25,346 nt of DNA from a virus, in the IMG/VR virus record IMGVR_UViG_3300025133_000552, positions 1-25,346 of that record; one strand, 5' to 3'. Below the pieces are notes generated by a model, which was given only the letters and a program-made list of their open reading frames with translations, was not told the origin of the DNA and ran no database searches. The position numbers were made by a program, and so were the translations under genes. Shown here one piece after another: positions 2,844-25,346 of the stretch (positions are counted from its first letter, which is position 1; the number at the start of each line of letters is the position of its first letter).

Positions 2844-3498
2844 GACTCAGGAAGATGACGCTAACGACGAGGGCACAGAAAAAAGCCCAAATGATATATT
2901 TAAAATAAGTTTTGCCGAGCTACCCCAAGAATCGCAACACTCGCGAACAATTCCATTGTTTGGAAACCTTGACGAAGAAAGGGTTGAAAATATTTGCTTG
3001 GCCCTTCTGGCTCTAAAAGATTCATGTTGTCAGGAGAAATTAACCGACCCCAAAGATCCAGAATCAGAAGTTGAAGTTTTTCACAAACCAATTGATATTT
3101 GTATTTCAACTTGGGGTGGAGACGCCTTGGGGATGTTTGCCATTTACGATCTCATGCGAATGATACGAGAAGAATGCGAAATTAACACATTTGCCATCGG
3201 AAAAGTTATGTCGGCAGGAGTTTTATTGCTCGCTGCTGGCACAAAGGGTCAACGCAAGGTTGGAAAACACACAAGAATTATGATTCATTCAATACGAGGT
3301 GGTCATTATGGCCCAGTTCATACCTTAGAAAATGAAATGGAAGAAACTCGCTGGATTCAGGAGCAACATATCGACGCTCTTGTAAAAGAAACAAAACTCA
3401 CTAAACGACAATTTAAGAAAATGTTAGATAAAAAAGTTGATGTCTACTTGAACGCTGAAGAAGCTGTAGAGTATGGAATAGCTGATATTATTGTTTAA
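2833..3498 (+). CDS. clpP: ClpP-like serine protease
   Basis: This 221-residue protein keeps the ClpP fold and triad: Ser127 in KVMSAGV, His152 in RIMIHS, and Asp203 in KKVDVYLNAEEAVEYGIAD. The upstream ISTWGGD (91-97) corresponds to the ClpP NSPGG strand. An acidic N-terminal extension of about 35 residues and an insert near 64-84 (CCQEKLTDPKDPESE) are unusual. Phage ClpP homologues act either as prohead maturation proteases or as true Clp partners. No Clp ATPase is visible here. The acidic scaffold-like protein just upstream and the CTS-like proteins downstream make head maturation an attractive inference. The SMG segment is altered (MSAG), but the nucleophile is retained, so activity is likely. 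Confidence 0.88.
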   Translation: MTDKTQEDDANDEGTEKSPNDIFKISFAELPQESQHSRTIPLFGNLDEERVENICLALLALKDSCCQEKLTDPKDPESEVEVFHKPIDICISTWGGDALGMFAIYDLMRMIREECEINTFAIGKVMSAGVLLLAAGTKGQRKVGKHTRIMIHSIRGGHYGPVHTLENEMEETRWIQEQHIDALVKETKLTKRQFKKMLDKKVDVYLNAEEAVEYGIADIIV

Positions 3499-5019: not shown

Positions 5020-5034
5020 ATAGAAGAGGTGTTA

Positions 5035-6924: not shown

Positions 6925-7239
6925 ATGAAAGTGAACATAGCTTATTCGGTAGAACTTGACGAAGTTCTTTCTAGTACTTTTGAAGTCTTGGCGAAAGAAC
7001 GAGAAACGACGGTAAAAATACTGAATGAGTCTCTGCAACGACTCTCGGTGCCATTTGATGACAACAACCTTATGAGTTCTCTTGAGACGTTAACGAAGTG
7101 TAGAGAAACACTGGCCAAACTTGATATAAAACTTGGTGAAATCTATAACGTTTTGTTAGGTTATGGCCAGATTCGTTATAAACAGATGCAACCACCGCCG
7201 ATGCAAAACGAAACAGAAACAGAAGGAAACGATGAATAA
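6925..7239 (+). CDS. small helical protein of unknown function
   Basis: This 104-residue protein begins one base after the preceding stop codon. Most of it looks helical (SLETLTKCRETLAKLDIKLGEIYNVL appears amphipathic over positions 54-79), ending in a Pro/Glu-rich tail (QPPPMQNETETEG). No motif ties it to a known family. Its last codons hold the AGAAGG ribosome binding site for the following gene, with which it overlaps by 8 nt. Confidence 0.6.
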   Translation: MKVNIAYSVELDEVLSSTFEVLAKERETTVKILNESLQRLSVPFDDNNLMSSLETLTKCRETLAKLDIKLGEIYNVLLGYGQIRYKQMQPPPMQNETETEGNDE

Positions 7240-8482: not shown

Positions 8483-9103
8483 TTGTCAACGCAAGCTAAA
8501 GCTAAATACTTGTTATTGTTTGGAATTATCAACTTTACTTTATATTTTGTGATAGCGGCGCTAATTGTAACAAGCGAATATGACTTTCTGCTGCCCTTTG
8601 ATCTTGTTATTCCGTTGATTCCTGAGTTTATTTGGATTTATCATTCTTTTTTTGCTGTAATAATCATTAGTTTTTTAGGACTGATGAAATCTCGGAAGCT
8701 TTTCTTCACATGCCTTTCTGGATTTTTCATAGCTATGGGGATTTTAAGTTTATTTTACGTTATCTTACCGTCTTATTATCCCAGAGATCTTTGGCCTGTT
8801 TCGATGGAATCTCTTTCTGATTGGCTTTTAATCAAAACAAGAGAGATTGACGCTCCCAATAACACGCTGCCATCTGGCCATAATACTTTTTCTTGGATGC
8901 TCGCGTTCTTTATGACAAAAGCGTCTTGTGCTAAAAAGTTCACATGGCTTGTCCCGGCCTATTTCGTTTGGGCTGTTCTTGTAACGGCATCAACTTTGGT
9001 TTTGAAACAGCACTATATTGTAGATGCGGTTTCGGGTATTGTGTTGGCCTACATTTGTTATCGTTTTTCTATGCGATCTATTTATTCTCGTATAAAAGAG
9101 TGA
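8483..9103 (+). CDS. PAP2-superfamily integral membrane phosphatase/phosphotransferase
   Basis: This is a 206-residue protein with about six hydrophobic segments. Two PAP2 motifs are visible: LPSGH at 129-133 with His133, and KQHYIVD at 175-181 with His177 and Asp181. The upstream basic motif (KxxxxxxRP) is degenerate. The superfamily dephosphorylates lipid phosphates (phosphatidate, undecaprenyl pyrophosphate) or transfers inositol phosphate headgroups at the membrane face. A phage copy could modify host envelope lipids. The start is TTG at 8483, supported by GGGGGTAGAG just upstream. The stop overlaps the next gene's GTG. Confidence 0.8.
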   Translation: MSTQAKAKYLLLFGIINFTLYFVIAALIVTSEYDFLLPFDLVIPLIPEFIWIYHSFFAVIIISFLGLMKSRKLFFTCLSGFFIAMGILSLFYVILPSYYPRDLWPVSMESLSDWLLIKTREIDAPNNTLPSGHNTFSWMLAFFMTKASCAKKFTWLVPAYFVWAVLVTASTLVLKQHYIVDAVSGIVLAYICYRFSMRSIYSRIKE

Positions 9104-9321
9104 GTGTTCAATTCGATATTAAAGTAGGAGACTTGGTGACTTATAAAGAGCCAAGAAGGTTTTTTACTGCCGAAAAGGGTAGCAACTTTTTAGGCGTTGT
9201 CACTCAAGCGGATCAAATTCATGCAAAAGTCTTTTGGCAAGATGGATTATGGTGTCTTGAGAGCTTAGAAGACCTTTCTTCCTTCGAGTGGACTATATAT
9301 TGTCATAAGATGACTAAATAA
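9100..9321 (+). CDS. GDLV-family small SH3/KOW-like protein
   Basis: This 73-residue protein opens FDIKVGDLVTYKEP, continues with FLGVVTQADQIHAKVFWQDG and ends with an unusual aromatic tail (FEWTIYCHKM). The GDLV motif starts about seven residues later than in array members. The start is GTG 9100, giving a 4-nt GTGA overlap with the PAP2 stop; no strong ribosome binding site is seen, so re-initiation from the PAP2 gene is likely. Confidence 0.68.
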   Translation: MSVQFDIKVGDLVTYKEPRRFFTAEKGSNFLGVVTQADQIHAKVFWQDGLWCLESLEDLSSFEWTIYCHKMTK

Positions 9322-9355: not shown

Positions 9356-9523
9356 ATGAAAATTGGAGACCTCGTAAAAGAAAAAAAGGGAAAACGGTTC
9401 GGTGGGACTGTTGTTAAAATGATTGCAAGCGATCAGGTGTCAGTTCAATGGTCCGATGGCGTCAATCGAATTTATGAAACAAAGCTTCTTGAGAATATCC
9501 GTTCAAGCTCAAACATTTTTTAA
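9356..9523 (+). CDS. GDLV-family small SH3/KOW-like protein (55 aa)
   Basis: The product opens MKIGDLVKEKKGKRFGG and continues VSVQWSDG and YETKLLENI. It is the closest paralogue in this window of the 48-residue gene at 14969: both share IGDLVKEK-GKR, a QW-(S/P)-(D/N)G turn and a KxLE end. Immediately upstream and in the same frame the DNA reads Tyr-Lys-Gly-Asp-Leu-Val-Ile before the ATG, an apparent relic of another GDLV start whose AAAGGTGA now lies where a ribosome binding site would be expected. Confidence 0.7.
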   Translation: MKIGDLVKEKKGKRFGGTVVKMIASDQVSVQWSDGVNRIYETKLLENIRSSSNIF

Positions 9524-14968: not shown

Positions 14969-15115
14969 ATGATTAAAATCGGTGACTTGGTAAAAGAAAA
15001 AGAAGGAAAACGACACAGTGGTCTCGTCATCGATGTAAAAGAAAATAAAGCCACAATCCAATGGCCAAACGGCACCAGTAAGCTCCATGAAATAAAATTC
15101 TTAGAAAAGTTCTAA
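14969..15115 (+). CDS. GDLV-family small SH3/KOW-like protein (48 aa)
   Basis: This is one of the shortest members, probably near the minimal domain: MIKIGDLVKEKEGKRHSG, LVIDV, ATIQWPNG, then KFLEKF. It is very similar to the gene at 9356, and the two flank the block containing the large CTS-type proteins. ATG 14969 is preferred over the adjacent ATG 14966 because GGAG (14960-14963) is then 5 nt away. It is followed within 7 nt by a promoter. Confidence 0.7.
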   Translation: MIKIGDLVKEKEGKRHSGLVIDVKENKATIQWPNGTSKLHEIKFLEKF

Positions 15116-16466: not shown

Positions 16467-16655
16467 ATGCAAAATACACTAAAAAAAGTAATTGTTTGGA
16501 GAATTCTTTCCACACTGATAGCACTCGTCCTTTCCTACCTTTTCTTGGGAGAGATAGTAAAAACAATAGCAATGACCGCAGCTTTTGCAGCCACAATGAC
16601 CACTGTTCACTACTTCTTTGAGATGTGGTGGGAAAAGCCAAATGGAAAAGGGTGA
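16467..16655 (+). CDS. DUF2061-type small membrane protein
   Basis: This 62-residue protein has KKVIVWRILSTLIALVLSY, a second hydrophobic segment (IAMTAAFAATMTTVHYFF) and EMWWEK. The pattern K-x-x-x-W-R, two helices, then an H-Y-x-x-E-x-x-W-like ending fits DUF2061, a short two-helix membrane family of unknown function. It starts 12 nt after the tRNA with no evident ribosome binding site. Its end overlaps the next gene by 14 nt. Confidence 0.7.
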   Translation: MQNTLKKVIVWRILSTLIALVLSYLFLGEIVKTIAMTAAFAATMTTVHYFFEMWWEKPNGKG

Positions 16656-16821
16656 CTTAGTAAAACATTGGATTTTTGGTGTTGGTTTCATTACCTCAAT
16701 TACCGAACCAACTATTAAGAATCCCTATCAACTGGCCACAATACAATTTACTAGCGGTCAAATTGATGAGTGCGTCACCACATCTCTTACGCTTTTATCT
16801 CAAAAAAAGCTTGACAAGTAA
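16642..16821 (+). CDS. GDLV-family small SH3/KOW-like protein (59 aa)
   Basis: The product opens MEKGDLVKHWIFGVGFI and continues ATIQFTSGQIDECV. ATG 16642 lies inside the end of the DUF2061 gene, with a 14-nt overlap as in the arrays. The last codons (Lys-Leu-Asp-Lys-stop) are written by the -35 box of the next promoter, so the C-terminus and the promoter share sequence. Confidence 0.68.
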   Translation: MEKGDLVKHWIFGVGFITSITEPTIKNPYQLATIQFTSGQIDECVTTSLTLLSQKKLDK

Positions 16822-16839
16822 ATAATAATAAACGATAAT
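16811..16839 (+). promoter_or_regulatory. sigma-70-type promoter overlapping a stop codon
   Basis: AAGC, then TTGACA (16811-16816), a 17-bp spacer starting AGTAAATAA and ending AAAC, then GATAAT (16834-16839). The TAA of the preceding gene lies in the spacer. It drives the gene at 16869 and probably the first GDLV chain. Confidence 0.82.
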
Positions 16840-16868: not shown

Positions 16869-17165
16869 ATGCCCAAAGTATATCAAGCATCTTACAAAGA
16901 GAACGGAAAAAGCTGGAGGACCAACAACGGCTCTCGAACAAAAATATTAGTAGAGGCACGAAATGCAGCCAAAGAATATGGTGTCCGTGTCATTGTCGAG
17001 GAACTTGAAATTGAAAAACTATCTTTCAAATATTTTGTCGAATGTATGAATGGGCGCAAGCCAAACAGTCGCAAGTTTATCTGCGCTTTTGAGCCAAGAG
17101 AATCAGTAATGGTTGAAGGCGAAGATGGCGAATTCACAAGACGTTGGAAAGTGCGGAAAGTATGA
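16869..17165 (+). CDS. unknown basic protein heading the first GDLV chain
   Basis: This 98-residue protein has no recognised family. It begins MPKVYQASYKENGKSWR and has a predicted strand-helix-strand core (ILVEARNAAKEYGVRVIVEEL) and a C-terminal strand pair around the acidic EGEDGEFTRRWKV. AGGAG lies 5-6 nt upstream of the ATG and a strong promoter precedes it. It overlaps the first GDLV gene by 4 nt (ATGA). Confidence 0.66.
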   Translation: MPKVYQASYKENGKSWRTNNGSRTKILVEARNAAKEYGVRVIVEELEIEKLSFKYFVECMNGRKPNSRKFICAFEPRESVMVEGEDGEFTRRWKVRKV

Positions 17166-17347
17166 AGAATAAATTTAAAATTGGGGACTTGGTTTCGCAT
17201 CGACACGAGCGACCTTCACGTTTTGGATTAGTTATGAAAACATACAAAACGAAATCAAATACAAACGAGTACTCAGTAAGCTGGCTCCAAGATAGAGGTC
17301 GTTCGCGTTGTACCGAAGGCATATTGGAAATGGTGAGCAAAGGGTGA
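17162..17347 (+). CDS. GDLV array 1, member 1 (61 aa)
   Basis: The product opens MKNKFKIGDLVSHRHE and continues FGLVMKTYKTK, YSVSWLQDRG and ILEMVSKG. It starts by ATGA overlap with the preceding gene and ends by GTGA overlap with the next. Unlike later members, its end does not show the ISESR-type tail, because the next gene overlaps by only 4 nt. Confidence 0.72.
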   Translation: MKNKFKIGDLVSHRHERPSRFGLVMKTYKTKSNTNEYSVSWLQDRGRSRCTEGILEMVSKG

Positions 17348-17514
17348 AAGTAGGCGACTTGGTTAAATTTAGACAGAATGGAGTGTTGGGCCTAATTGTC
17401 GGCGGCGCAACTGACGGGTTCTCGTTAATGTTCCGCGTCCAGTGGTTTGATGATGCTTGCCCAGTGCAATCTCGTTACGCTGAAGAAATGGAGGTAATCA
17501 GTGAAAGTCGGTGA
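17344..17514 (+). CDS. GDLV array 1, member 2 (56 aa)
   Basis: The product opens MKVGDLVKFRQNGVLGLIV, has a variable middle (GGATDGFSLMF), then RVQWFDD and MEVISESR. The start is GTG in a GTGA overlap. It is the first member with the complete family pattern including the junction-encoded tail. Confidence 0.74.
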   Translation: MKVGDLVKFRQNGVLGLIVGGATDGFSLMFRVQWFDDACPVQSRYAEEMEVISESR

Positions 17515-17719
17515 TTTAGTAAAGCTTGCAAACTGGTGCAGGAACGGACCAGCTTTGATGCAAGTTATGGAGATAGACCCTCTTGGAAGCTGGGGAATGG
17601 TAAGCGCACAATTTTTACAAGGACCAAAAATAGGTTCGATAGTCAATGTAACCAAGGGAAATATCTTTTCCATTGAGAAATACGAAGGGGCGATGAAAAA
17701 ACATTATGAACGTCGGTGA
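17501..17719 (+). CDS. GDLV array 1, member 3 (72 aa)
   Basis: The product opens MKVGDLVKLANWCRNG and continues GSWGMVSAQFL and GSIVNVTKGNIFSIEKYEG. It is longer, and its strand pattern differs after the motif; the end lacks LEVI (MKKHYERR). The GTG start lies inside the previous gene (14-nt overlap), with GGAGGTAATCA as ribosome binding site. Confidence 0.72.
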   Translation: MKVGDLVKLANWCRNGPALMQVMEIDPLGSWGMVSAQFLQGPKIGSIVNVTKGNIFSIEKYEGAMKKHYERR

Positions 17720-17891
17720 TTTGGTAAAACACAAACGCACACAAGCAATGGGCATGATTGTACGAGTCCCCAAGGGACGCAAACCCGGCGCATACGATAT
17801 TTATTTTGATGTTGAATGGTACGATGGGCACAATAACGTGCCGGGGAGCCATCTTCGAGGGGAATTGCTACCAGCCTATGAAAGTCGGTGA
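17706..17891 (+). CDS. GDLV array 1, member 4 (61 aa)
   Basis: The product opens MNVGDLVKHKRTQAMGMIV and continues IYFDVEWYDGHNN and LLPAYESR. Asn replaces the usual Lys or Gln at position 2, and the upstream gene correspondingly ends in Glu-Arg-Arg. It has a 14-nt overlap at both ends; a purine-rich GAAGGGGCG lies about 15 nt before the ATG, further than in its neighbours. Confidence 0.72.
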   Translation: MNVGDLVKHKRTQAMGMIVRVPKGRKPGAYDIYFDVEWYDGHNNVPGSHLRGELLPAYESR

Positions 17892-18075
17892 TTTAGTAAA
17901 AGTTGCAGCAGAAGGGTTGAGAACACCAATTGGTAGTCTTGCGTTGGTCACAAGAGTGGAAGAACGGGAAGACTCAACAGGCACCATAATTCAATATTGG
18001 GCACACATGGTGGAATCAGGCTCCACGTTTTGGTTTCGATTGGAAGCTTTGGAGATCATCAGTGAAAATCGGTGA
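17878..18075 (+). CDS. GDLV array 1, member 5 (65 aa)
   Basis: The product opens MKVGDLVKVAAEGLRTPIG and continues SLALVTRVEERED, IIQYWAHMV, FRLEALEIISENR. The middle is expanded by an acidic loop. The ATG start has a 14-nt overlap on both sides. GAGGGG lies about 15 nt before the ATG, so coupling to upstream translation is probably important. Confidence 0.73.
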   Translation: MKVGDLVKVAAEGLRTPIGSLALVTRVEEREDSTGTIIQYWAHMVESGSTFWFRLEALEIISENR

Positions 18076-18238
18076 TTTAATTAAAGAAGTTGAATATCCT
18101 GAAGTTGCTGTAGTTGCTGAAATTGATTTTAACCGCATCAACGCGCCCTATCGTTTACTCTGTCCCGATGGAAAATACACTTGGTTCAGTCGAGAATATG
18201 TCGAAGAGAGGTGCGAGGTCATAAATGAAAGTCGGTGA
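18062..18238 (+). CDS. GDLV array 1, member 6 (58 aa)
   Basis: The product opens MKIGDLIKEVEYPEVAVV and continues RLLCPDGKYTWFSREY and CEVINESR. It is a divergent member: LI replaces LV in the motif, and the residues after it are acidic where most members are basic. The GTG start lies inside member 5 with a 14-nt overlap. Confidence 0.7.
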   Translation: MKIGDLIKEVEYPEVAVVAEIDFNRINAPYRLLCPDGKYTWFSREYVEERCEVINESR

Positions 18239-18404
18239 TTTAGTAAGAATAACAAGTGCATCCCGTCCTATTGTAACGGAAATTGGTGTTTTTTTGGGGA
18301 TGGGCGAAAGCTGGAAAGAGTGGTATCGAGTTTGGGTGCGCGGCAAAGAACAAAGATATGATGAACCCTTCTGGGAAATAGAGGTAATAAATGAACGACG
18401 CTAA
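18225..18404 (+). CDS. GDLV array 1, member 7 (59 aa)
   Basis: The product opens MKVGDLVRITSASRPIV and continues TEIGVFLGMG, YRVWVRGKEQR and WEIEVINERR. Arg replaces Lys after the motif. It is the last GDLV gene of this chain; its 3' junction still has the GAGGTAATAA signal but leads into an unrelated gene. Confidence 0.71.
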   Translation: MKVGDLVRITSASRPIVTEIGVFLGMGESWKEWYRVWVRGKEQRYDEPFWEIEVINERR

Positions 18405-18609
18405 AATGTTAAAAACTCCTCTGAATACCGAAACAAATCGGGAGGTTCTCGTAAGAATTCTTGTCAACGATTTGACAAAAAAACAGCTACAAGAAATAGT
18501 CAAAGTTCAATTTATGAGCACCTTTAAGGTTTCTAAGGAAACTTTCAAAAAAGCATATTGGAAATATTATGACGAAACCGGCGGCCATTGTCCATTTGAC
18601 CTAAATTAA
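18391..18609 (+). CDS. non-GDLV gene using the array junction
   Basis: This 72-residue helical, basic protein (VLVRILVNDLTKKQLQEIV, then ETFKKAYWKYYDE) is of unknown function. It has no GDLV motif, yet it starts with the same 14-nt overlap and the same GAGGTAATAA ribosome binding site as the array members. It therefore looks like a passenger attached to the array end. Confidence 0.65.
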   Translation: MNDAKMLKTPLNTETNREVLVRILVNDLTKKQLQEIVKVQFMSTFKVSKETFKKAYWKYYDETGGHCPFDLN

Positions 18610-18617
18610 AAATACCC

Positions 18618-18646
18618 TTGACGAACAAAAAATATTTATTGATAAT
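18618..18646 (+). promoter_or_regulatory. sigma-70-type promoter, candidate leaderless mRNA
   Basis: TTGACG (18618-18623), 17-bp spacer, GATAAT (18641-18646). The expected start of transcription (about 7 nt after the -10 box) is within a few bases of the ATG at 18656, leaving no room for a ribosome binding site. Confidence 0.72.
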
Positions 18647-18655
18647 AACTATAAT

Positions 18656-18847
18656 ATGAGCGAAAGTGATGAACCTAAAAATGAATTTCATATTAGTGTC
18701 TATCCTGCTTCCATTTATTGCAGAATAGACCTACCCTTCAAGTTGAATGGAGTCGAAGAAACAATGGTCTTAGAAAACAAAATACACGAGTCCTTAGAAG
18801 AAGCCCTTCTGGATTTTCAAGAAAACTTCTTGACAAATAAAATATAA
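18656..18847 (+). CDS. small unknown protein, probably translated from a leaderless mRNA
   Basis: This is a 63-residue acidic protein: FHISVYPASIYCRIDLPFK, then EETMVLENKIHESLEEALLDF. The strand-strand-helix order is plain, but no family is recognised. No Shine-Dalgarno sequence precedes the ATG; the sequence there (ACTATAAT) is all A/T apart from one C, and the promoter sits 10 nt away. Its last codons contain the -35 box of the next promoter. Confidence 0.62.
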   Translation: MSESDEPKNEFHISVYPASIYCRIDLPFKLNGVEETMVLENKIHESLEEALLDFQENFLTNKI

Positions 18848-18858
18848 TAAAATAGAAT
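18830..18858 (+). promoter_or_regulatory. sigma-70-type promoter for the zinc-knuckle gene
   Basis: TTGACA (18830-18835), 17-bp spacer, TAGAAT (18853-18858). The -35 box lies in the 3' end of the preceding coding sequence. TTGGAGGAAAAC follows as ribosome binding site for the GTG at 18892. Confidence 0.78.
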
Positions 18859-18891
18859 ATATATAGAAACTTAAAACTTGGAGGAAAACAA

Positions 18892-19620
18892 GTGAGTTGG
18901 AATGGAACCGTTAGGTGCAGTTATTGTTACCAGAGCAAACACAATCGAGCGACATGTCCTGCGTTATTGGAAAATATGAAGCAGCGACTTGCAGACAATC
19001 CAGAAGACCTTAGAGCTAAATTCTTTTTCGAAAGAAAGGCAAAAAAACAGGGAAGGCTTAAATCTTGCGGCTATTGCCACAATGCGGGTCACACAAGACG
19101 AACATGCAAAGAGTTGAATAATGCTAAAAAAGTTGCTGTGGAGAAATGCTGCGAGTGGCGGCAAAGATTTATTGCAGAAATAAAGAAAACAGGTTTAGGT
19201 ATCGGCGCACTGGTTCAGATTGATTCTGGTAGACCATATTTAGGAGTTTTGACTGCAATCAACTGGCATAATCTTGACCATCGCATCGAATTTTCTTCCT
19301 CGGGTCACGATGGAAATAAAGCTTTAATACTTCATCCCGTGGGAGATATTCTTGAATCTGGAACTCGCCGTATATCGTCAATTCCAAATTTTGAAGGTCT
19401 TGTCTCAGAAGCTCAATTGACCTATGGTTATGGCCCTCAACCAGCAAATATTATTGGCCCCATTAGCAAAAGCGCCATTGAAAAACAGATTCCAAGTGAT
19501 TTCCTAGATGGAACTGACTGCATTGAATCCATTTTTCAGGAAAGCGCTAAATCTCAAGACAGACCGTCAAGTTGGCAAGTGGAGGAATGGTGCGAATTAG
19601 TAGGATTTTATGACAATTAA
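18892..19620 (+). CDS. double CCHC zinc-knuckle protein with GDLV/SH3-like domain
   Basis: In this 242-residue protein, two perfect CX2CX4HX4C zinc knuckles lie at residues 9-22 and 59-72. This nucleic-acid-binding motif is typical of retroviral Gag and of RNA-processing factors, and is uncommon in bacteria. Residues 101-135 (GLGIGALVQIDSGRPYLGVL and following) resemble the GDLV family's first two strands. The remaining C-terminal part is unassigned, with aromatic and acidic residues. A single-stranded RNA or DNA-binding role is inferred. The GTG start has GGAGGAAAAC upstream. The structured RNA at 19656-19783 follows directly and could be a partner, though nothing proves it. Confidence 0.8.
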   Translation: MSWNGTVRCSYCYQSKHNRATCPALLENMKQRLADNPEDLRAKFFFERKAKKQGRLKSCGYCHNAGHTRRTCKELNNAKKVAVEKCCEWRQRFIAEIKKTGLGIGALVQIDSGRPYLGVLTAINWHNLDHRIEFSSSGHDGNKALILHPVGDILESGTRRISSIPNFEGLVSEAQLTYGYGPQPANIIGPISKSAIEKQIPSDFLDGTDCIESIFQESAKSQDRPSSWQVEEWCELVGFYDN

Positions 19621-19626
19621 GACAAG

Positions 19627-19652
19627 AAGTTAAAAGCAAGGGTTTTTAACTT
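19627..19652 (+). terminator. AT-rich hairpin after the zinc-knuckle gene
   Basis: AAGTTAAAA (19627-19635) pairs perfectly with TTTTAACTT (19644-19652) around an 8-nt loop, 6 nt after the stop codon. No U-run follows, so termination would be weak. It may protect the mRNA end or be the first element of the RNA that follows. Confidence 0.45.
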
Positions 19653-19655
19653 TGT

Positions 19656-19783
19656 AGCGGAGCCGGTTAGAAATAAACATGGATTACCTTCAATGACTCT
19701 AATGAAGAGGGCCAGCGAGCCAAGTTGAAATGAGTCTAAGCGCTCTTGGGCTAAAGAAACCAAGTGCGGCTCCGTTATTTTTT
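19656..19783 (+). ncRNA. candidate structured RNA of unknown family
   Basis: The gap 19621-19799 holds no gene but much structure. A 10-bp closing stem joins AGCGGAGCCG (19656-19665) and CGGCTCCGTT (19767-19776), then TATTTTTT, which would make the stem a Rho-independent terminator too. Inside it are GGT/ACC, GACTC/GAGTC enclosing GGC/GCC, and CTTGG/CCAAG with a 10-nt loop, consistent with a multi-branched junction. I could not match it to a riboswitch, tmRNA, RNase P or 6S pattern. It could be a small RNA or a leader of the GDLV gene at 19800. Confidence 0.6.
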
Positions 19784-19799
19784 AAAATAGAGGTACAGT

Positions 19800-19982
19800 G
19801 TGTTTGAAGTTGGAGATTTGGTCAGGACAAGAGATTTAGTGGGTCTTGTTTTAGAAAAAAAAGCAATGAAACATACTCATGGTGTCCGAACGATTTGGTG
19901 GTACACTGTTGATTTCTTTGAAGAAGAAGAGTTTGAACCAAGGATTGTTTCCCAAGCTAATATCTTTCCACTTGACAAGTAA
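19800..19982 (+). CDS. GDLV-family small SH3/KOW-like protein (60 aa)
   Basis: The product opens MFEVGDLVRTRDLVGLVLE and continues IWWYTVDFFEEEEFEPR and IFPLDK. The GTG start has AGAGGT 5 nt upstream, placed directly after the structured RNA. Its final Leu-Asp-Lys is encoded by the -35 box of the next promoter (CTTGACAAG), as at 16821. Confidence 0.7.
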   Translation: MFEVGDLVRTRDLVGLVLEKKAMKHTHGVRTIWWYTVDFFEEEEFEPRIVSQANIFPLDK

Positions 19983-20000
19983 ATAACAATAAACGATAAT
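19972..20000 (+). promoter_or_regulatory. sigma-70-type promoter overlapping a gene end
   Basis: TTGACA (19972-19977), a 17-bp spacer AGTAAATAACAATAAAC, GATAAT (19995-20000). The spacer differs from that at 16811 by one base in 17. Confidence 0.82.
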
Positions 20001-20028
20001 TATTATAGAAACTTTGTTAGGGGAAAAA

Positions 20029-20655
20029 ATGAATCCATCTTTGTTGCAGCGCATTGAAAGAGTTCTCTCAAAAGGTAAAGCCGAAGGAAGTCTCAACAAC
20101 TGGGAAGCAAGTTTTGCCGACTCCATCGAAACGCAGCTTGTGCGAAACCCTGAGCGCGAGTTGAGCCAGAAACAATTGAACTGGTTTCAAAAGATTGAAG
20201 CAAAAGTTCTTTCAAACAATCCCCAGAAATGGCTAGAAGAATGGAATGAAGAAAAGGCAAAGAAGTTAGCTATCGCGGTTTCTTATTACGAACACGCTGA
20301 ATATTATTTTGCCGACCTTGTTCAATGGGTCAAAGATAATCCCACAAAAATCATAAGTGAAAGAAATTATAAGAAGCTTGTAGAAAACAAGTATGCTCAA
20401 AAGATTATCAACGCTCTTGAGACCGAACCGCTTTATCCCGCTGGTTCTAACGTTTTAGTTCGCTCCAATAGCACTATCCCTCCGCACCTTCAAAGTTATC
20501 GCGGTGAATTGTTTTTCGTCATTAAACCTTTGAATCGCGCAATTTCCGCTGCGAATGGTTGCCGGTTGTATCTCGTGTTGTCATCTAAGTCCTCAGAAAC
20601 ATTTGAGATTGAGGAACGTTGGATAAAAAAGAATAAAAAGAATAAAAAGTCTTGA
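20029..20655 (+). CDS. unknown protein, helical N-terminus and beta C-terminus
   Basis: This is a 208-residue protein. Two related helical pieces (LLQRIERVLSKGKAEGSLNN and LNWFQKIEAKVLSNNPQKW) suggest an internal repeat. After about residue 135, PAGSNVLVRSNSTIPPHL, GELFFVIKP and CRLYLVLSS give an SH3-like strand run, possibly another relative of the GDLV fold, and it ends in a Lys/Asn run. No activity can be assigned. ATG 20029 follows AGGGGA. Its stop TGA is inside the next promoter's TTGACA. Confidence 0.66.
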   Translation: MNPSLLQRIERVLSKGKAEGSLNNWEASFADSIETQLVRNPERELSQKQLNWFQKIEAKVLSNNPQKWLEEWNEEKAKKLAIAVSYYEHAEYYFADLVQWVKDNPTKIISERNYKKLVENKYAQKIINALETEPLYPAGSNVLVRSNSTIPPHLQSYRGELFFVIKPLNRAISAANGCRLYLVLSSKSSETFEIEERWIKKNKKNKKS

Positions 20656-20680
20656 CAAGTAAATAATAATAAATGATAAT
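20652..20680 (+). promoter_or_regulatory. sigma-70-type promoter for the MoxR gene
   Basis: TTGACA (20652-20657), a 17-bp spacer AGTAAATAATAATAAAT, GATAAT (20675-20680). The TGA stop of the preceding gene lies within the -35 hexamer. Confidence 0.82.
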
Positions 20681-20712
20681 GGTTATAGTTAATAGATAGA
20701 AGGGAGAAAACA

Positions 20713-21777
20713 TTGTCTGTTGATTTTAAAACGTTTCGTCTGTGCGCTCCGCATGTAATCAAAGTTCGTAAACCGATTTTGCTTCGTGGTCGCCACGGCA
20801 TCGGCAAATCAGAAGTTGTCTATCAGATAGCAGAAGATTTGAATTTGCCCGTCGTTGAACGACGTGCTTCACAAATGACCGAAGGCGATTTGCTTGGTAT
20901 GCCGTCGCCGGAACAGATTGAAGTCAACGGGGAACGTGCAAGCGTTTTTCGTCCCTTCGAGTGGTTTCTTCGCGCCTGTACAGAACCAGTTGTATTGTTT
21001 CTTGACGAAGTTGACCGTGCTACCACTGAGGTACGGCAAGGGATTTTTGAGCTAACAGACTCTCGCAAACTTGCCGGATGGAAGCTTCACGAAGATACTA
21101 TTGTTGTCGCTGCTGTTAACGGTGGCGAGCATAGCGCCCAATATCAAGTAAACGATATGGACCCTGCGGAATTGGACCGTTATACTGTTTTTGACGTGGA
21201 GCCTACCGTTGAAGATTGGCTAAATTGGGGAAAAGATAACGTAGATTCAATGGTTTGGGACTTTATCAACCAGAATCGCGACCATTTGGAGCACACTGAC
21301 GATTTCGAGCCTAACAAGATTTATCCTTCCCGTCGTTCGTGGAAACGATTGAGTGATTGTTTTGTCGAGGGTCAAATTTTGTCTGAGGAAGCAGACCCAA
21401 CAGTCTTTTTTAGTCTTGCAACAAGTTTTGTTGGATTTGAAGCTGCTGTTTCGTTCCTTGATTTTTACAAGAATTACGAGCGTAATATCACTTGGGAAGA
21501 AATTGTAAATGATGGCAAAGTCGAGAAAACTAAAGACTTTGATATCAATCAGCATTGCGCTTTGGTTGAAAAGATGGATGCTTCAGGTATCTTTTCTGAA
21601 GAATTGAACGACAATCAGCTTGACAACCTTTCAGATTATTTCAAATTGATGCCGTCTGAGGTAGCTATGAAACTCTGGAAGTCTATCGCAAGTGCAAGTT
21701 CAATCGACCAGCACGATACAATCAAAAAGTTTCATTCCCGAGTCCAAACGGCTCTAACGGAAATGCTCTCTGAGTAG
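20713..21777 (+). CDS. MoxR-type AAA+ ATPase
   Basis: This 354-residue protein has Walker A GRHGIGKSE (26-34), Walker B VVLFLDEVDRA (93-103), sensor 1 AAVNGG (133-138) and an ELDRY arginine-finger-like segment. The preceding ASQMTEGDLLG matches the MoxR-specific loop after Walker A. MoxR ATPases remodel or activate partner proteins and usually sit beside a VWA-domain protein, as here. The C-terminal half is helical. The start is TTG at 20713 with AGGGAGA upstream. Target and role in infection are unknown; the pair may act on virion assembly or host complexes. Confidence 0.85.
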   Translation: MSVDFKTFRLCAPHVIKVRKPILLRGRHGIGKSEVVYQIAEDLNLPVVERRASQMTEGDLLGMPSPEQIEVNGERASVFRPFEWFLRACTEPVVLFLDEVDRATTEVRQGIFELTDSRKLAGWKLHEDTIVVAAVNGGEHSAQYQVNDMDPAELDRYTVFDVEPTVEDWLNWGKDNVDSMVWDFINQNRDHLEHTDDFEPNKIYPSRRSWKRLSDCFVEGQILSEEADPTVFFSLATSFVGFEAAVSFLDFYKNYERNITWEEIVNDGKVEKTKDFDINQHCALVEKMDASGIFSEELNDNQLDNLSDYFKLMPSEVAMKLWKSIASASSIDQHDTIKKFHSRVQTALTEMLSE

Positions 21778-21784
21778 ATTTTTC

Positions 21785-21813
21785 TTGACAAATAAATAAC
21801 AATAAACGATAAT
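21785..21813 (+). promoter_or_regulatory. sigma-70-type promoter for the VWA/peptidase gene
   Basis: TTGACA (21785-21790), a 17-bp spacer AATAAATAACAATAAAC, GATAAT (21808-21813). Transcription would start near 21820, which is the first ATG of the next gene. Confidence 0.82.
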
Positions 21814-21825
21814 TAGGGTATGGTT

Positions 21826-23064
21826 ATGGAAAATAAAGAAGAATTCGACCTTGACAAGCATATTCTGGTTTTACTGAAGGACGAGCCGTTTTTCGCGGCT
21901 TTGTCCCGACGTATAAACAAAAGAAAAGCTTATTTCATTCCTACTGCTGGCGTAAGGGTTGACCCCAAAACCGCCCAATTTGAAATGGTCTATAATCCAG
22001 ACTTTTTTCTAAGTCTCACAAAACCACAACGACTTGACGTGCTGAAACATGAATTTTATCATTTGATTTTTCTGCATGTTACATCTCGAAAACCGGAAGA
22101 CGTAAATCCTTTAATGTGGAATTACGCTACCGACCTCTCTATTAATTCTCACTTGAACAACTTACCAGAAAATTGTTTGAAGCCGGGAGTAGACTATTTT
22201 GAAGATTTTCCTTCTGGCTTGACTGCTGAAAAATACTTGAAGCTTCTTGAAAAGAAGAAAAAAGAAGAAGAAGAGAAAGAAGGTAAAGACCAAAAAGGTC
22301 AAAAGGGAGACGGTCAAGAAGGGGAAGAAGGAAAAAGTGGTTCGGGATTCCCTGAAGACGGACAGTTTGATAGTCACGACGACTGGTCAAACGATGCAGA
22401 ACAGGGACAAGAGCGTCAACAAGCTGCTGATATCGCAAAGGAGCGCATCAAAGAGTTTGTTAAGGATGCTGCCGAAGAAGCCCAAAAGTCTAATTCTGGT
22501 TGGGGTTCGATTCCTGAATCGGTTCGACGTGAAATTATTGCCAACTTGCAAACAAATGTTGATTGGCGTAAGGTGTTGCGCTATTTTGTCAAGACAAGTT
22601 TGCGCTCAAGTCGCCGGAGTACTGTAAAAAGACTCAATAAACGTTATCGTTACATTCATCCCGGTAAAAAAGTGTCCAGAATGGCTAAGATTGCAATTTC
22701 TATTGACCAATCTGGTTCAGTTAGCGATGCAATGCTTGAACTGTTCTTTGCAGAATTGAATAAGCTTGCAAAGCTTGCGACGTTTACCATCGTGCCGTTT
22801 GACACAAGAGTAGAGCCAGAATTAGTTTATGAATGGAAAAAAGGCACTACTCATCAGACGACACGAGTGATGTGTGGTGGAACTGATTTTGATGCTCCAA
22901 CAGAGTATGTCAATAAACAAAGCTTTGATGGTCACATTGTTCTCACAGATATGGCCGCACCCAAACCAAAAGCTTCAAAATGTCAGCGCATGTGGATGAC
23001 CACAAAAGCTTGTTTGAGCTATCAGTATTTCCAAACTAACGAAAAAGTTATTGTTGTAGACTAG
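21826..23064 (+). CDS. DUF2201-type putative metallopeptidase with VWA domain
   Basis: This 412-residue protein (counted from ATG 21826) has an N-terminal domain with the zinc-protease motif HEFYH (75-79), followed by a Lys/Glu/Gly-rich linker (about 140-195) and a C-terminal VWA domain with MIDAS residues DQSGS (294-298), GGTDF (351-355) and TD (374-375). This is the architecture of DUF2201/VWA-like predicted metallopeptidases found beside MoxR ATPases. ATG 21826 has AGGG about 7 nt upstream; ATG 21820 coincides with the expected transcription start and would make a leaderless mRNA. The separate promoter for each partner is unusual for such a pair. Confidence 0.85.
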   Translation: MENKEEFDLDKHILVLLKDEPFFAALSRRINKRKAYFIPTAGVRVDPKTAQFEMVYNPDFFLSLTKPQRLDVLKHEFYHLIFLHVTSRKPEDVNPLMWNYATDLSINSHLNNLPENCLKPGVDYFEDFPSGLTAEKYLKLLEKKKKEEEEKEGKDQKGQKGDGQEGEEGKSGSGFPEDGQFDSHDDWSNDAEQGQERQQAADIAKERIKEFVKDAAEEAQKSNSGWGSIPESVRREIIANLQTNVDWRKVLRYFVKTSLRSSRRSTVKRLNKRYRYIHPGKKVSRMAKIAISIDQSGSVSDAMLELFFAELNKLAKLATFTIVPFDTRVEPELVYEWKKGTTHQTTRVMCGGTDFDAPTEYVNKQSFDGHIVLTDMAAPKPKASKCQRMWMTTKACLSYQYFQTNEKVIVVD

Positions 23065-23075
23065 AAGGAGCAAAT

Positions 23076-23279
23076 ATGACGATAGGCGACACAGTTAAAC
23101 TTAAAGATATTCCCCAGAACAACCAGCGATTTTTGAGCAAATATCAAAATAAGACCGGCAAAATTGTAGATGAGCAAGCGTTAGTTAGCAAGAAGCGTTA
23201 TTTCCGTGTCTTGTTTGACGGCGCATGTTCCTATGAGGATTTGGGAAGTTGGCGATTCGAAATTTTTTCGACAGAATGA
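23076..23279 (+). CDS. GDLV-family relative (67 aa, GDTV variant)
   Basis: The product opens MTIGDTVKLKDIPQNNQ and continues KTGKIVDEQA, YFRVLFDGACSYEDLG and FEIFSTE. Thr replaces Leu in the motif, but the strand order matches. A strong AGAAGGAG ribosome binding site precedes the ATG, 11 nt after the VWA gene, so it likely shares that transcript. It overlaps the next gene by 4 nt (ATGA). Confidence 0.68.
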   Translation: MTIGDTVKLKDIPQNNQRFLSKYQNKTGKIVDEQALVSKKRYFRVLFDGACSYEDLGSWRFEIFSTE

Positions 23280-23473
23280 TGCCTCCTCCTCGACCCATTA
23301 AAGTTGGAGATTTGGTAACTCACTTGAGCAACAATATGCTTGGGCTTGTTTACGAGGTGTACCGATGCAAGGACTATTCAGATTTGATGATACGAGTCCA
23401 ATGGTACGACGGCAGAACAGACAAGCTTAACGCCAAACTTTCCTATTGGCACGATGAAATTGAATTAGTTTGA
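23276..23473 (+). CDS. GDLV-family small SH3/KOW-like protein (65 aa)
   Basis: The product opens MMPPPRPIKVGDLVTHLS and continues MLGLVYEVYRCKDY, IRVQWYDGRTD and DEIELV. It has a short Pro-rich leader before the motif, unlike array members. ATG 23276 overlaps the preceding stop; an adjacent ATG at 23279 is equally possible, and no ribosome binding site is evident. Confidence 0.68.
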   Translation: MMPPPRPIKVGDLVTHLSNNMLGLVYEVYRCKDYSDLMIRVQWYDGRTDKLNAKLSYWHDEIELV

Positions 23474-23481
23474 GGTAATCA

Positions 23482-23655
23482 ATGAAGAAACAAATACAAC
23501 AGTATCTTGACGAAATAGCAGTCTTAAAGGCCGAAAACAATCAACTTAGTCAGAAGATTAAAATGTTGGAGACCAAACTTTATTCAGCAGAAAAACGTTG
23601 TGCTTGTTTTCGCAACAATCAAAAGCTATGCGAGGACACAAATGAAAATCGGTGA
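23482..23655 (+). CDS. small coiled-coil protein embedded in a GDLV cluster
   Basis: The 57-residue product is a likely leucine-zipper coiled coil: IQQYLDEIAVLKAENNQL with hydrophobic heptad positions, then KRCACFRNNQKLC with three cysteines. GAGGTAATCA precedes the ATG exactly as in the arrays, and its 3' end carries the junction tail (Asn-Glu-Asn-Arg) with a 14-nt overlap into the next GDLV gene. It therefore occupies a cassette position without being a family member. Confidence 0.66.
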   Translation: MKKQIQQYLDEIAVLKAENNQLSQKIKMLETKLYSAEKRCACFRNNQKLCEDTNENR

Positions 23656-23791
23656 TTTGGTCATGTATAGAAACAAGTTTCATATCGTTACAAAGACTTA
23701 CGGAACAATGGTGTCACTTAGCGGCATGGACCTTAACAGGGTTTTTCGTAAAGAAGAAATAAAAGTTATAAATAAATCAAATAAAGCTTGA
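23642..23791 (+). CDS. GDLV-family small SH3/KOW-like protein (49 aa)
   Basis: The product opens MKIGDLVMYRNKFHIVTK and continues TMVSLSGMDLNRVF and EEIKVINKSNKA. It is one of the shortest members. The ATG lies inside the coiled-coil gene. The TGA stop (23789-23791) falls within the TTGACA box of the promoter for the split tRNA. Confidence 0.68.
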   Translation: MKIGDLVMYRNKFHIVTKTYGTMVSLSGMDLNRVFRKEEIKVINKSNKA

Positions 23792-23816
23792 CAACCACTT
23801 AAATCTATGAGATAAT
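23788..23816 (+). promoter_or_regulatory. sigma-70-type promoter for the split tRNA
   Basis: AAGC, TTGACA (23788-23793), 17-bp spacer, GATAAT (23811-23816). Transcription should start near 23823, about 30 nt before the tRNA, so a 5' leader must be removed. Confidence 0.8.
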
Positions 23817-23852
23817 ACCTACAGAAACAATCGAAAAAGGATTGAAAAATAT

Positions 23853-24068
23853 GCCAAGGTAGCTCAGTGGAAGAGCGTCACCCAGTAGGAAGCCAAAAGC
23901 CCACCGTGACCACAACAAACACGAGATTGATCCTCTCGGTGGAAAAAAAATGTAGCGTGTTATCGCTGCGCGGGGGTCTGGGAAATAGGCTGAAACACTG
24001 CAAAGGTTTTGAGCAGTGGAACTACGTTACGAGGTGGAGGTCGTCGGTTCGAACCCGTGCCCTTGGTA
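23853..24068 (+). tRNA. tRNA-Val (anticodon UAC) interrupted by a 143-nt insert
   Basis: The two halves of one cloverleaf are separated. The 5' part (23853-23883) gives acceptor GCCAAGG, D arm GCTC/GAGC, and anticodon stem TCACC plus C32. The 3' part (24027-24068) gives TTACGA, GGTGG, the T arm and CCTTGGT plus A73. Joined, the loop is CTTACGA with U33 and anticodon TAC (Val), and the stems pair, with G-U at 1-72 and at 27-43. Without removal of 23884-24026 there is no U33 and no 7-nt loop. The T stem pairs only if one base (24058) is bulged. CCA is not encoded. It could also be a decayed, non-functional tRNA. Confidence 0.78.
23884..24026 (+). other. tRNA intron-like insert (143 nt, structured, no ORF)
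   Basis: It lies between tRNA positions 32 and 33. Its ends pair (GTAG 23885-23888 with CTAC 24022-24025). Nested inside are AGCC/GGCT (23891-23894/23988-23991), CCACCG/CGGTGG (23901-23906/23937-23942), hairpin GTAGCG/CGCTGC (23952-23957/23964-23969) and hairpin CACTGC/GCAGTG (23996-24001/24013-24018). The last base is G, as in group I introns, but the 5' exon ends in C rather than U, no P7-like core is evident, and it is shorter than typical group I introns. The class is unassigned. Confidence 0.68.
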
Positions 24069-24080
24069 CTAAAATAAAGC

Positions 24081-24109
24081 TTGACTTATTAATTTTAATA
24101 TGAGAGAAT
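24081..24109 (+). promoter_or_regulatory. sigma-70-type promoter for GDLV array 2, candidate leaderless
   Basis: AAGC, TTGACT (24081-24086), 17-bp spacer, GAGAAT (24104-24109). The expected start of transcription coincides with the ATG at 24116, and no ribosome binding site is seen before it. Confidence 0.72.
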
Positions 24110-24115
24110 ATAAGT

Positions 24116-24307
24116 ATGAAATGTGGAGATTTAGTAAGAATTCCAAAAGCCCGAATTGGCGTACCCGCTAACTCGCTTGGTCTTATCGTCGGAGCGAATA
24201 GAAGCGAACCAAGACATTGGCTTATTTACGACATCCAACTTATGAATACAGACAATCGCGTTGTCAGGCGACTTGGGCGAGACTTAGAGGTAGTAAAATG
24301 CAAGTAG
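24116..24307 (+). CDS. GDLV array 2, member 1 (63 aa)
   Basis: The product opens MKCGDLVRIPKARIGVP and continues SLGLIVGANRSE, LIYDIQLMNTDNR and LEVVKCK. It lacks a Shine-Dalgarno and heads the chain directly after the promoter, so it is probably read from a leaderless mRNA. Its last codons carry GAGGTAGTAAA, the ribosome binding site of member 2 (10-nt overlap). Confidence 0.71.
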   Translation: MKCGDLVRIPKARIGVPANSLGLIVGANRSEPRHWLIYDIQLMNTDNRVVRRLGRDLEVVKCK

Positions 24308-24474
24308 GCGACTTGGTTGTGAGAACTTACGGAGAGGGTCAACGTCCAAGAGCACTTGTTGTGGGGTTTGGGTATAAACCCTCCATCGCAAAAATAATAT
24401 GGTTGGGCACTGACGCGATTATTCAGTTTGGTACAAGCCACTTGGAGGTCATCCAATGCAAAGAGGCGATTTAG
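24298..24474 (+). CDS. GDLV array 2, member 2 (58 aa)
   Basis: The product opens MQVGDLVVRTYGEGQRP and continues ALVVGFGYKPSIAKIIWLG and HLEVIQCKEAI. From here Gln replaces Lys at position 2 in most members. It runs past the usual end and overlaps member 3 by 19 nt, the largest overlap in the array. Confidence 0.72.
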   Translation: MQVGDLVVRTYGEGQRPRALVVGFGYKPSIAKIIWLGTDAIIQFGTSHLEVIQCKEAI

Positions 24475-24635
24475 TTCTGACCACTTTGGCAGGAATAGGT
24501 AAACCATCAAGAAGCGTGTACGGCTTGCTTATAAAGCCAATTGCAACAAGTTTTTGGAGTGTTTTTCTCTTTGAAGAGGAAACATTTATCTGCCTTCCCT
24601 TCGCAGCGTTCGAGGTCATAAATGCAAGTCGGTGA
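24456..24635 (+). CDS. GDLV array 2, member 3 (59 aa)
   Basis: The product opens MQRGDLVLTTLAGIGKP and continues YGLLIKPIATSFWSVFLFEEE and FEVINASR. It is hydrophobic in the middle and has Arg in place of Val before GDLV. The ATG has GGAGGTCATCC as ribosome binding site. Confidence 0.72.
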   Translation: MQRGDLVLTTLAGIGKPSRSVYGLLIKPIATSFWSVFLFEEETFICLPFAAFEVINASR

Positions 24636-24777
24636 TTTAGTAAAGTTAAAAGAAGACAATGACGCAACAGGCTTAATTGTTGCCGCAGAAGGGAACTTCT
24701 TTCACATTCAGTGGCTCGATGGCTTTTGTTTTACCCGCTACGATGATGAATTGGAGGTAATCAGTGCAAGTAGGTGA
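24622..24777 (+). CDS. GDLV array 2, member 4 (51 aa)
   Basis: The product opens MQVGDLVKLKEDNDATG and continues LIVAAEGNFFHIQWLDGF and LEVISASR. This is the most compact complete copy in the array and a good guide to the domain's minimum: motif, GLIV strand, IQW strand, DG turn and LEVI end. It has a 14-nt overlap at both ends. Confidence 0.74.
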   Translation: MQVGDLVKLKEDNDATGLIVAAEGNFFHIQWLDGFCFTRYDDELEVISASR

Positions 24778-24940
24778 CTTAGTGAAGCACAAAAGCTCTG
24801 GCGACATTGGATTAGTTACGGAAACGCCATGGTGGGCGAAACGAGCAAAAGTTCATACTACTACTGTTCATTTTTTTGATGATAATAGGGGAGCAAACTG
24901 TATATGTTCTGCTTTGGAGGTCATCAGTGCAAGTCGGTGA
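24764..24940 (+). CDS. GDLV array 2, member 5 (58 aa)
   Basis: The product opens MQVGDLVKHKSSGDIG and continues LVTETPWWAKRAKVHTTTVHF and ALEVISASR. The middle carries a Trp-Trp and a Thr-rich stretch not seen in neighbours. The GTG start has GGAGGTAATCA as ribosome binding site. Confidence 0.73.
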   Translation: MQVGDLVKHKSSGDIGLVTETPWWAKRAKVHTTTVHFFDDNRGANCICSALEVISASR

Positions 24941-25103
24941 TTTAGTAAAATATAGATATGGTCAACAAGACCTTGGAATTATAATTGAAAGAAAACAAGA
25001 GACAAAAGAGCACACCCCAAAGCTCAGAGTAATGTGGGTTGGATTCCGCAATCTCACAGATTGGATGCGACCAACAGGATTGGAGGTAATCTCATGCAAG
25101 TAG
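24927..25103 (+). CDS. GDLV array 2, member 6 (58 aa)
   Basis: The product opens MQVGDLVKYRYGQQDLG and continues IIIERKQETKEHT, LRVMWVGFRN and LEVISCK. The GTG start lies in the previous gene. The end switches to the SCK type because the next overlap is 10 nt instead of 14. Confidence 0.73.
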   Translation: MQVGDLVKYRYGQQDLGIIIERKQETKEHTPKLRVMWVGFRNLTDWMRPTGLEVISCK

Positions 25104-25255
25104 GTGATTTGGTAAAAAAGCGAAACTGCGTCGGAGTTGGCATTGTGGTCAAGATTACTGACGAGTTTGCACTTGTTTGCGCCGAAACAAAATGGTCGCC
25201 GCTTGGTCATTGTAAAGTTTGGGTTGGGCTGCGCCGTCTTGAGGTAGTAAAATGA
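25094..25255 (+). CDS. GDLV array 2, member 7 (53 aa)
   Basis: The product opens MQVGDLVKKRNCVGVG and continues IVVKITDEFALVCAETKW and RRLEVVK. Two Cys are in the core. The ATG follows GGAGGTAATCTC; the gene ends in ATGA overlap with member 8. Confidence 0.73.
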   Translation: MQVGDLVKKRNCVGVGIVVKITDEFALVCAETKWSPLGHCKVWVGLRRLEVVK

Positions 25256-25346
25256 AAGTAGGTGATTTGGTAAAGCTCACCGATTATGGAGCAAACACTA
25301 AATATGGCGTTGTGACAATAGACGGTCAATTCAATGTCAGAGTGCA
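25252..25346 (+). CDS. GDLV array 2, member 8 (partial, cut by window end)
   Basis: The visible 31 codons read MKVGDLVKLTDYGANTKYG, VVTIDGQFNVRV. The gene is open at the window edge, so the array continues beyond. Its ribosome binding site is GAGGTAGTAAA, and position 2 returns to Lys. Confidence 0.72.
   Translation, partial: MKVGDLVKLTDYGANTKYGVVTIDGQFNVRV

Follow-up and report, generated by a model that had tools for sequence, protein, structure and literature searches.

The virus sequence analyzed here (the window; 25,346 bases, the entire IMG/VR record IMGVR_UViG_3300025133_000552, which is a fragment) carries tandem arrays of small genes encoding one family of proteins of about 60 amino acids, which are predicted to fold as SH3/KOW-like β-barrels. 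Within the arrays, neighboring genes, which we call cassettes, overlap at a conserved joint that codes in two frames, and whole cassettes are gained and lost between related contigs. We are highly confident of this anatomy of the arrays and of the exchange of cassettes, as read from the sequences. That the arrays are a shuffling repertoire of SH3/KOW-like barrels in uncultured, distantly T4-like phages, with the exchange and partner-binding steps proposed below included, seems to us probable. The functional step, a predicted repertoire of binders for host takeover or anti-defense, is a best guess that we offer tentatively.

A large family of small proteins encoded in tandem arrays

A family profile was built from 14 window members and then iterated over fetched loci. 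In the window, the iterated profile recognizes 21 family members, each on the plus strand (Table 1), and 2 further open reading frames (ORFs), at 16642 and 23076, that are marginal (E-values of 3.3e-4 and 2e-3, respectively, with filters off), the latter having GDTV. Because the iteration set takes in the window itself, the E-values of window members are somewhat optimistic, and shuffling gives the fair comparison; the profile had 0 matches in 20 shuffled windows and 0 matches among reversed ORFs. An earlier reading of the window, made from its letters and ORFs without database searches (the sequence-only reading), had described seven chained ORFs at 17162-18404 and a second chain at 24116-25346. 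Both are present, the second with eight ORFs, the last of which is cut by the contig end. Of the single genes listed in that reading, those at 9100, 9356, 14969, and 19800 match the profile and 16642 is marginal (E of 3e-4), but the ORF at 7232 is not supported as a member (E of 0.3). In the group of three that it placed at 23076-23791, the ORFs at 23279 and 23642 match and 23076 is marginal, but the ORF at 23482-23655 is unrelated.

The expanded family is real and is larger than the sequence-only reading had it. Scanning IMG/VR with the joint sequence gave at least 119 stretches, and eight loci were fetched via an unrelated gene of 900 amino acids; most loci were fetched by an exact match to the joint, and only L005 to L012 were not. 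The profile finds at least 1,428 members in at least 131 loci (1.15 Mb, of which family coding sequence makes up ~260 kb), but 4 of the 131 loci (L001 to L004) are pieces of the window and some others are from the same or near-identical contigs, which means fewer independent members. Wherever a start was assigned (1,372 members), the gene lies on the majority strand of its locus, and the median member length is 62 amino acids. Large relatives of 136 to 204 kb have 12 to 32 profile matches per record. The members form 724 orthogroups, of which 469 are singletons, and orthogroups 0 to 11 keep idiosyncratic residues across many contigs.

Scans of Pfam, PHROGs, and NCBIfam found no family covering the members. 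The Pfam KOW model (PF00467) matches 2 of 100 members with a best E-value of 0.002, which is not convincing, and DUF2158/YodC (PF09926) reaches 11.4 to 11.6 bits against a curated cut-off of 22.3 (1 of 100 members, E of 0.06). The best PHROGs v4 match, phrog_9237 (unknown function), is to 9 of 100 members (E of 1e-4), and no PHROG family spans most members. A tblastn search of 50,697 phage records with two single members gave no match, either because the queries are too divergent or because the family is absent there, and the literature searched on tandem paralogue arrays, KOW/SH3-like phage proteins, and Far-T4 genomes does not describe the family. The family is confirmed to be large and undescribed.

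Two variants of the domain were observed. In members of orthogroup 11 (in L072, L078, L104, L030, and L131), the first strand is followed by an insertion with four cysteines (C..CxCFFC), which may be a zinc-binding loop added to the barrel. In L073, L046, and L109, the domain forms the C-terminal part of proteins of ~167 to 171 amino acids (E of 4e-4 to 2e-3), so that its occurrence is not limited to stand-alone proteins. For the conserved neighbors at 18892 and 20014, visual inspection hinted at a fusion with the domain, which the profile does not support (E of ~5).

Predicted fold

The family is predicted to be a five-strand SH3/KOW-like β-barrel consisting of a single domain of ~60 amino acids. 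AlphaFold2 (AF2) predictions were made for the proteins encoded at 24622 and 17501, both with family alignments. The model of 24622 has a predicted local distance difference test (pLDDT) score of 94.9 and strands at residues 6-9, 16-23, 26-31, 36-40, and 44-48. The model of 17501, the most divergent window member, has the same strand order and a pLDDT of 75.9 (~85 over residues 1-50), with a disordered tail. The best Foldseek match is KOWx-KOW4 of DSIF (5oho; template modeling [TM] score of 0.82, probability of 1.00, E of 0.019), and the Foldseek neighbors are KOW domains of DSIF, ribosomal proteins, and MutS2-associated SH3 domains (E of ~0.02 to 0.1, probability of 1.00, TM score of ≤0.87). 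Sequence-profile matches are to Spt5 (E of 4e-4) and NusG (E of 0.016). The profile matches, the Foldseek results, and the two models, which share one strand order rather than having unrelated or disordered folds, bear out the single SH3/KOW-like fold proposed in the sequence-only reading.

The joint between cassettes

Cassettes are connected by a joint of ~32 nucleotides (nt) with the consensus TTGGAGGTnATCARTGAAAGTCGGTGATTTGGT. In loci that were mostly fetched by this joint, the overlap is exactly 14 nt in 650 of the ~850 overlapping or near neighbors, and the next most frequent overlap is 4 nt (90 cases). Among non-family genes, the 14-nt overlap is found in 10 of 321, and the gaps also peak at -4. 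High information is confined to positions -12 to +19 relative to the start codon, with almost none outside this range. The joint codes the last strand of the upstream protein (LEV) and the GDLV strand of the next one, and it supplies the upstream stop as well as the Shine-Dalgarno sequence and start of the next gene. Its GGAGGT is both the E-V of the upstream L-E-V and the Shine-Dalgarno sequence, 5 nt before the next start codon (GTG or ATG), while AGTGAAAGTCGGTGA reads S-E-S-R-stop in the upstream frame and, from its second base, M-K-V-G-D in the downstream frame.

The sequence-only reading had noted that the ends of these proteins are conserved and the middles are variable. The pattern is correct, but the C-terminal ISESR/ISASR is the start region of the next gene in another frame, conserved because AGTGAAAGTCGGTGA doubles as that gene's start. 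The conserved C-terminal end is mostly a shadow of the shared DNA joint and not scaffold conservation alone. The strict LEV motif is weaker in array-terminal members (19% versus 45%). In 96% and 95% of joints, the two other frames meet a stop within 20 nt, compared with 65% and 44% at other gene starts. A programmed frameshift fusing cassettes was considered and dropped, since the 5-nt Shine-Dalgarno spacing fits initiation at the internal GTG or ATG.

Cassette exchange and selection on cassettes

Related contigs differ by the gain or loss of whole cassettes, with the crossover inside the joint. L022 and L020 differ by a 176-bp cassette with flanks that are 100% identical on both sides, and this event and that in L110/L106 are the cleanest of the seven events shown. 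Eleven events are listed, which are not all independent because some share a locus. In L106/L054, L032/L125, and L079/L073, the flanks have many substitutions and the crossover is placed less sharply. Cassettes that are 80 to 97% identical between contigs have a homologous neighbor in 16 to 21% of comparisons. When one definition is used for both classes, a homologous neighbor is kept at 80 to 90% amino acid identity for 15% of family genes and 58% of other genes. At a background identity of 65 to 80%, shared gene content is 30% for the family versus 65% for other genes, a contrast that is inflated, since the blocks share their ends by construction and matches are harder to find for short proteins.

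Judging from substitution patterns, orthologous cassettes are genes under purifying selection. The median ratio of nonsynonymous to synonymous substitution rates (dN/dS) across 137 orthologous pairs is 0.158, and 99% of the pairs are below 1, which is not the pattern of untranslated frames. Only a single pair includes a window member (17878 versus L130.1), and its dN/dS is 0.78. The reading-frame control had just 5 usable pairs (median of 1.1) and gives weak support. The sequence-only reading had also suggested a modular repertoire, and this is borne out by the cassette swaps between phages and the constraint on each orthogroup.

Proposed recombination route and role, and alternative explanations

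A RecA/UvsX-type protein is present in 13 of 13 large relatives. In the same 13 genomes, no reverse transcriptase (PF00078) and no tyrosine recombinase (PF00589) were detected; the control for the latter matched 14 of 14. Based on these results, we infer that homologous recombination or annealing at the ~20- to 32-nt joint is the likeliest route of exchange. The joint would be the short homology where the phages' own RecA/UvsX-type recombination joins cassettes of co-infecting relatives, and each recombined product would stay a translationally coupled polycistron. Less firmly, the proteins may be expressed early, from sigma70 promoters of the host type, and a different host or rival-element partner may be bound by each orthogroup, in host takeover or anti-defense. 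A phage population could thus keep more binders than a single genome holds. The sequence-only reading had suggested binders of host factors, anti-defense inhibitors, or adaptors of RNA polymerase or the ribosome as possible roles.

Early expression in the window is suggested by seven TTGACA-17-GATAAT/TAGAAT sites (11 of 12 consensus matches) on the plus strand between 15122 and 23816, which resemble near-consensus sigma70-type promoters. Several of the seven have near-identical spacers (AGTAAATAATAATAAACGATAATGG), which suggests a repeated promoter element. A test for a general promoter upstream of arrays gives only a weak signal outside the window. MotB is a precedent for a KOW-like domain in a host-acting early T4 protein (PMC7827196).

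Several observations weigh against this explanation. Across loci, there are 14 strong promoters 5' of array starts versus 6 expected, which is a weak enrichment. The fetching of most loci by the exact joint biases the joint statistics upward; L152, an unbiased 136-kb contig found via the 900-amino-acid gene, still has ten 14-nt joints and seven 4-nt joints. Four-fold degenerate sites inside the joint (-5 and +20) vary freely, which indicates that two-frame coding and ribosome binding, beyond any recent copying, maintain old joints. Even without homology-driven recombination, breakpoints that survive could gather at joints because broken ORFs are selected against. Finally, the average net charge of the proteins is ~-0.5, which is near neutral with a wide spread, and thus no single nucleic-acid role is indicated.

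The alternative that survives best, which we nevertheless consider unlikely, keeps the same arrays and exchange but has the proteins bind nucleic acid, RNA polymerase, or the ribosome as KOW-like regulators rather than act in anti-defense. It draws on the best profile and fold matches, which are to KOW domains of Spt5/DSIF, NusG, and ribosomal eS4/uL24, and on T4 MotB, a DNA-binding early protein with a predicted KOW N-terminal domain and an effect on host gene expression (PMC7827196). However, neither the average net charge nor the 2 of 100 matches to the Pfam KOW model favors this explanation, and a lineage with hundreds of different regulators would be out of the ordinary.

It is quite improbable that one gene simply duplicated locally in tandem and diverged, with the overlaps reflecting a compact phage operon style, and this explanation is disfavored. 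All members do share the fold and the joint, and compact gene overlaps are normal in phages, the non-family gaps likewise peaking at -4. In contrast with what duplication would give, similar cassette pairs within one locus are nearly absent (9 in all, 2 of them adjacent), which argues against this process. In addition, near-identical cassettes sit beside different neighbors in other contigs, and the 14-nt overlap is common in the family (650 of ~850) but rare elsewhere (10 of 321). From these comparisons, array growth looks like import and recombination rather than local tandem duplication.

Slightly less probable again is that the adjoining MoxR-VWA chaperone pair uses the barrels as substrates or adaptors in assembling the virion or other complexes. 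MoxR and DUF2201/VWA genes recur by arrays in 37 to 38 loci, and a passage of PMC7824862 proposes a role in virion assembly for the MoxR-vWA pairs of jumbo phages. However, 436 records from cultured phages of many kinds have MoxR homologues, and the six named phages tested, close gp23 relatives included, lack array members. Fast shuffling also fits a conserved assembly role poorly, and the co-location may be shared synteny. Least probable are neutral or selfish cassettes carried by recombination without benefit: turnover is fast and the 469 singletons could be partly neutral, but the low dN/dS within orthogroups and the idiosyncratic residues kept in orthogroups 0 to 11 disfavor this.

Lineage, distribution, and genomic neighborhood

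The capsid protein gp23 is present in 19 of 25 related records, and the window itself has no gp23. The nearest named gp23 records are those of Rhodothermus RM378, Flavobacterium immuto, and Microcystis Mel-JY01, at <50% identity. The lineage may be Far-T4, and many of the contigs have IMG sample numbers that we believe to be marine. A cyanophage origin is not supported (psbA in 0 of 25 related records). No profile match was obtained in immuto, Mel-JY01, RM378, S-SSM7, HTVC008M, or T4, and one was obtained in an uncultured 484-kb phage. In the Far-T4 genome paper (PMC4360716), the terms looked for turn up no such family. Among species genomes, the joint pattern matches only one, the WOR-3 metagenome-assembled genome (MAG) chromosome CP070664.1 (L134). 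This chromosome has 11 family members at three places, and the joint is in phage-like DNA beyond a masked stretch. The MAG may include phage sequence, and we do not read the match as a host link.

Genes that recur beside arrays in 34 to 38 loci encode MoxR, DUF2201/VWA, a zinc-knuckle protein, and a 20014-like protein. The zinc-knuckle protein (18892-19620) has two C2H2-type motifs and homologues in 35 array loci. One stretch of the window carries phage-borne genes for IMP dehydrogenase/GMP reductase (236-1231), a ClpP-like protease (2833-3498), and a GroEL-like chaperonin (5029-6612). Just 5' of array 2, positions 23852-24068 contain the tRNA-like halves GCCAAGGTAGCTCAGTGGAAGAGCG (5') and GGTTCGAACCCGTGCCCTTGGTA (3') with an insertion of ~130 nt between them, which looks like a tRNA split by insertion. 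This element is called by neither ARAGORN nor Rfam, and its fold is not unusual compared with shuffles (z of -1.2).

Table 1. Family members, joints, and associated features of the window
Feature	Position	Strand	Evidence
Single family member, starts KVGDLVTYKEPRRFF	9100..9321	+	Profile E 4e-6
Single family member, paralogue of 14969	9356..9523	+	Profile E 4.5e-8
Single family member	14969..15115	+	Profile E 5e-6
Marginal family member	16642..16821	+	Profile E 3.3e-4, filters off
Sigma70-like promoter TTGACA-17-GATAAT, 5' of array 1	16811..16839	+	11/12 consensus matches
Array 1 cassette 1	17162..17347	+	Profile
Array 1 cassette 2, GTG start	17344..17514	+	Profile
Joint GAGGTAATCAGTGAAAGTCGGTGATTTAGT	17491..17520	+	Exact match, chance expectation 0
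Array 1 cassette 3, most divergent member	17501..17719	+	Profile E 0.005; AF2 barrel
Array 1 cassette 4	17706..17891	+	Profile
Array 1 cassette 5	17878..18075	+	Profile; orthologue L130.1, dN/dS 0.78
Joint	18052..18081	+	3 mismatches to searched pattern
Array 1 cassette 6, orthogroup 8 (11 members)	18062..18238	+	Profile
Joint	18215..18244	+	Exact match
Array 1 cassette 7	18225..18404	+	Profile
Single family member	19800..19982	+	Profile E 0.005
MoxR-type AAA+ ATPase, not family	20713..21777	+	PHROG 1297 E 1e-54; in 37 loci
DUF2201 metallopeptidase-like + VWA protein, not family	21820..23064	+	PF13203 E 3e-24, PF09967 E 2e-12; 38 loci
Marginal family member (GDTV)	23076..23279	+	Profile E 0.002, filters off
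Family member	23279..23473	+	Profile E 1.4e-8
Family member, orthologue in L155	23642..23791	+	Profile E 3e-4
Sigma70-like promoter TTGACA-17-GATAAT, 5' of array 2	23788..23816	+	
Sigma70-like promoter TTGACT-17-GAGAAT, TG before -10, just 5' of array 2	24081..24109	+	9/12
Array 2 cassette 1, orthogroup of 11 members	24116..24307	+	Profile
Array 2 cassette 2	24298..24474	+	Profile
Array 2 cassette 3	24456..24635	+	Profile E 0.006
Joint	24612..24641	+	Exact match
Array 2 cassette 4	24622..24777	+	Profile E 1e-13; AF2 pLDDT 94.9, five strands
Joint	24754..24783	+	Exact match
Array 2 cassette 5, GTG start	24764..24940	+	Profile
Joint	24917..24946	+	Exact match
Array 2 cassette 6, GTG start	24927..25103	+	Profile
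Array 2 cassette 7	25094..25255	+	Profile
Array 2 cassette 8, cut by contig end	25252..25346	+	Profile E 4e-5

Comparison with known systems and significance

The KOW/SH3-like domains of Spt5/DSIF, NusG, eS4, and uL24 and the MutS2-associated SH3 domains share the five-strand barrel with this family, but the family members are stand-alone proteins of ~60 amino acids, present in dozens per genome and without a convincing family-wide Pfam match. DUF4314 and T4-type gp30.5, which are small phage SH3-like proteins, have a similar predicted fold in a viral structure library, although a sequence match to DUF4314 is absent among the Pfam matches listed for the family. DUF4314 and gp30.5-type proteins are not known to form arrays. 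T4 MotB is likewise an early protein of a T4 phage with a predicted KOW-like domain, but it has two domains (the N-terminal KOW and an OB fold) and is conserved in T-even phages (PMC7827196), and the profile finds nothing in T4. Bacillus phage G likewise has dozens of one tiny domain, ~35 zinc ribbons, but these have a different fold, and the part of PMC7824862 that deals with them does not describe a shared joint or cassette exchange.

Integron cassettes are also single-gene modules that are gained, lost, and reordered at a shared junction. Unlike in integrons, the joint in these arrays is coding DNA on both sides and no tyrosine recombinase was found in the 13 large relatives, which makes homologous recombination likelier than an integron-type route. 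Diversity-generating retroelements likewise yield variable binding proteins in phages, but no reverse transcriptase was found in any of the 13, and the variation in these arrays is by whole cassettes. The arrays combine known kinds of organization, paralogue arrays and gene cassettes, with an unusual joint and strong signs of exchange. We stop just short of calling it probable that they are an integrase-free phage cassette system in which the coding joint is the recombination site, any two joined cassettes would work as a coupled pair, and the phage population would have an open, shuffling repertoire of small proteins that bind host or rival targets.

The module boundary lies in coding sequence, and such a virus could enlarge its set of genes with neither a dedicated integrase nor a reverse transcriptase. 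The family takes up several kilobases of each large relative genome, yet it is without a Pfam, PHROG, or NCBIfam description. If its members are partner-specific binders, the arrays would be a large natural library of anti-host or anti-defense proteins on one scaffold, and each cassette is small enough for synthesis and screening.

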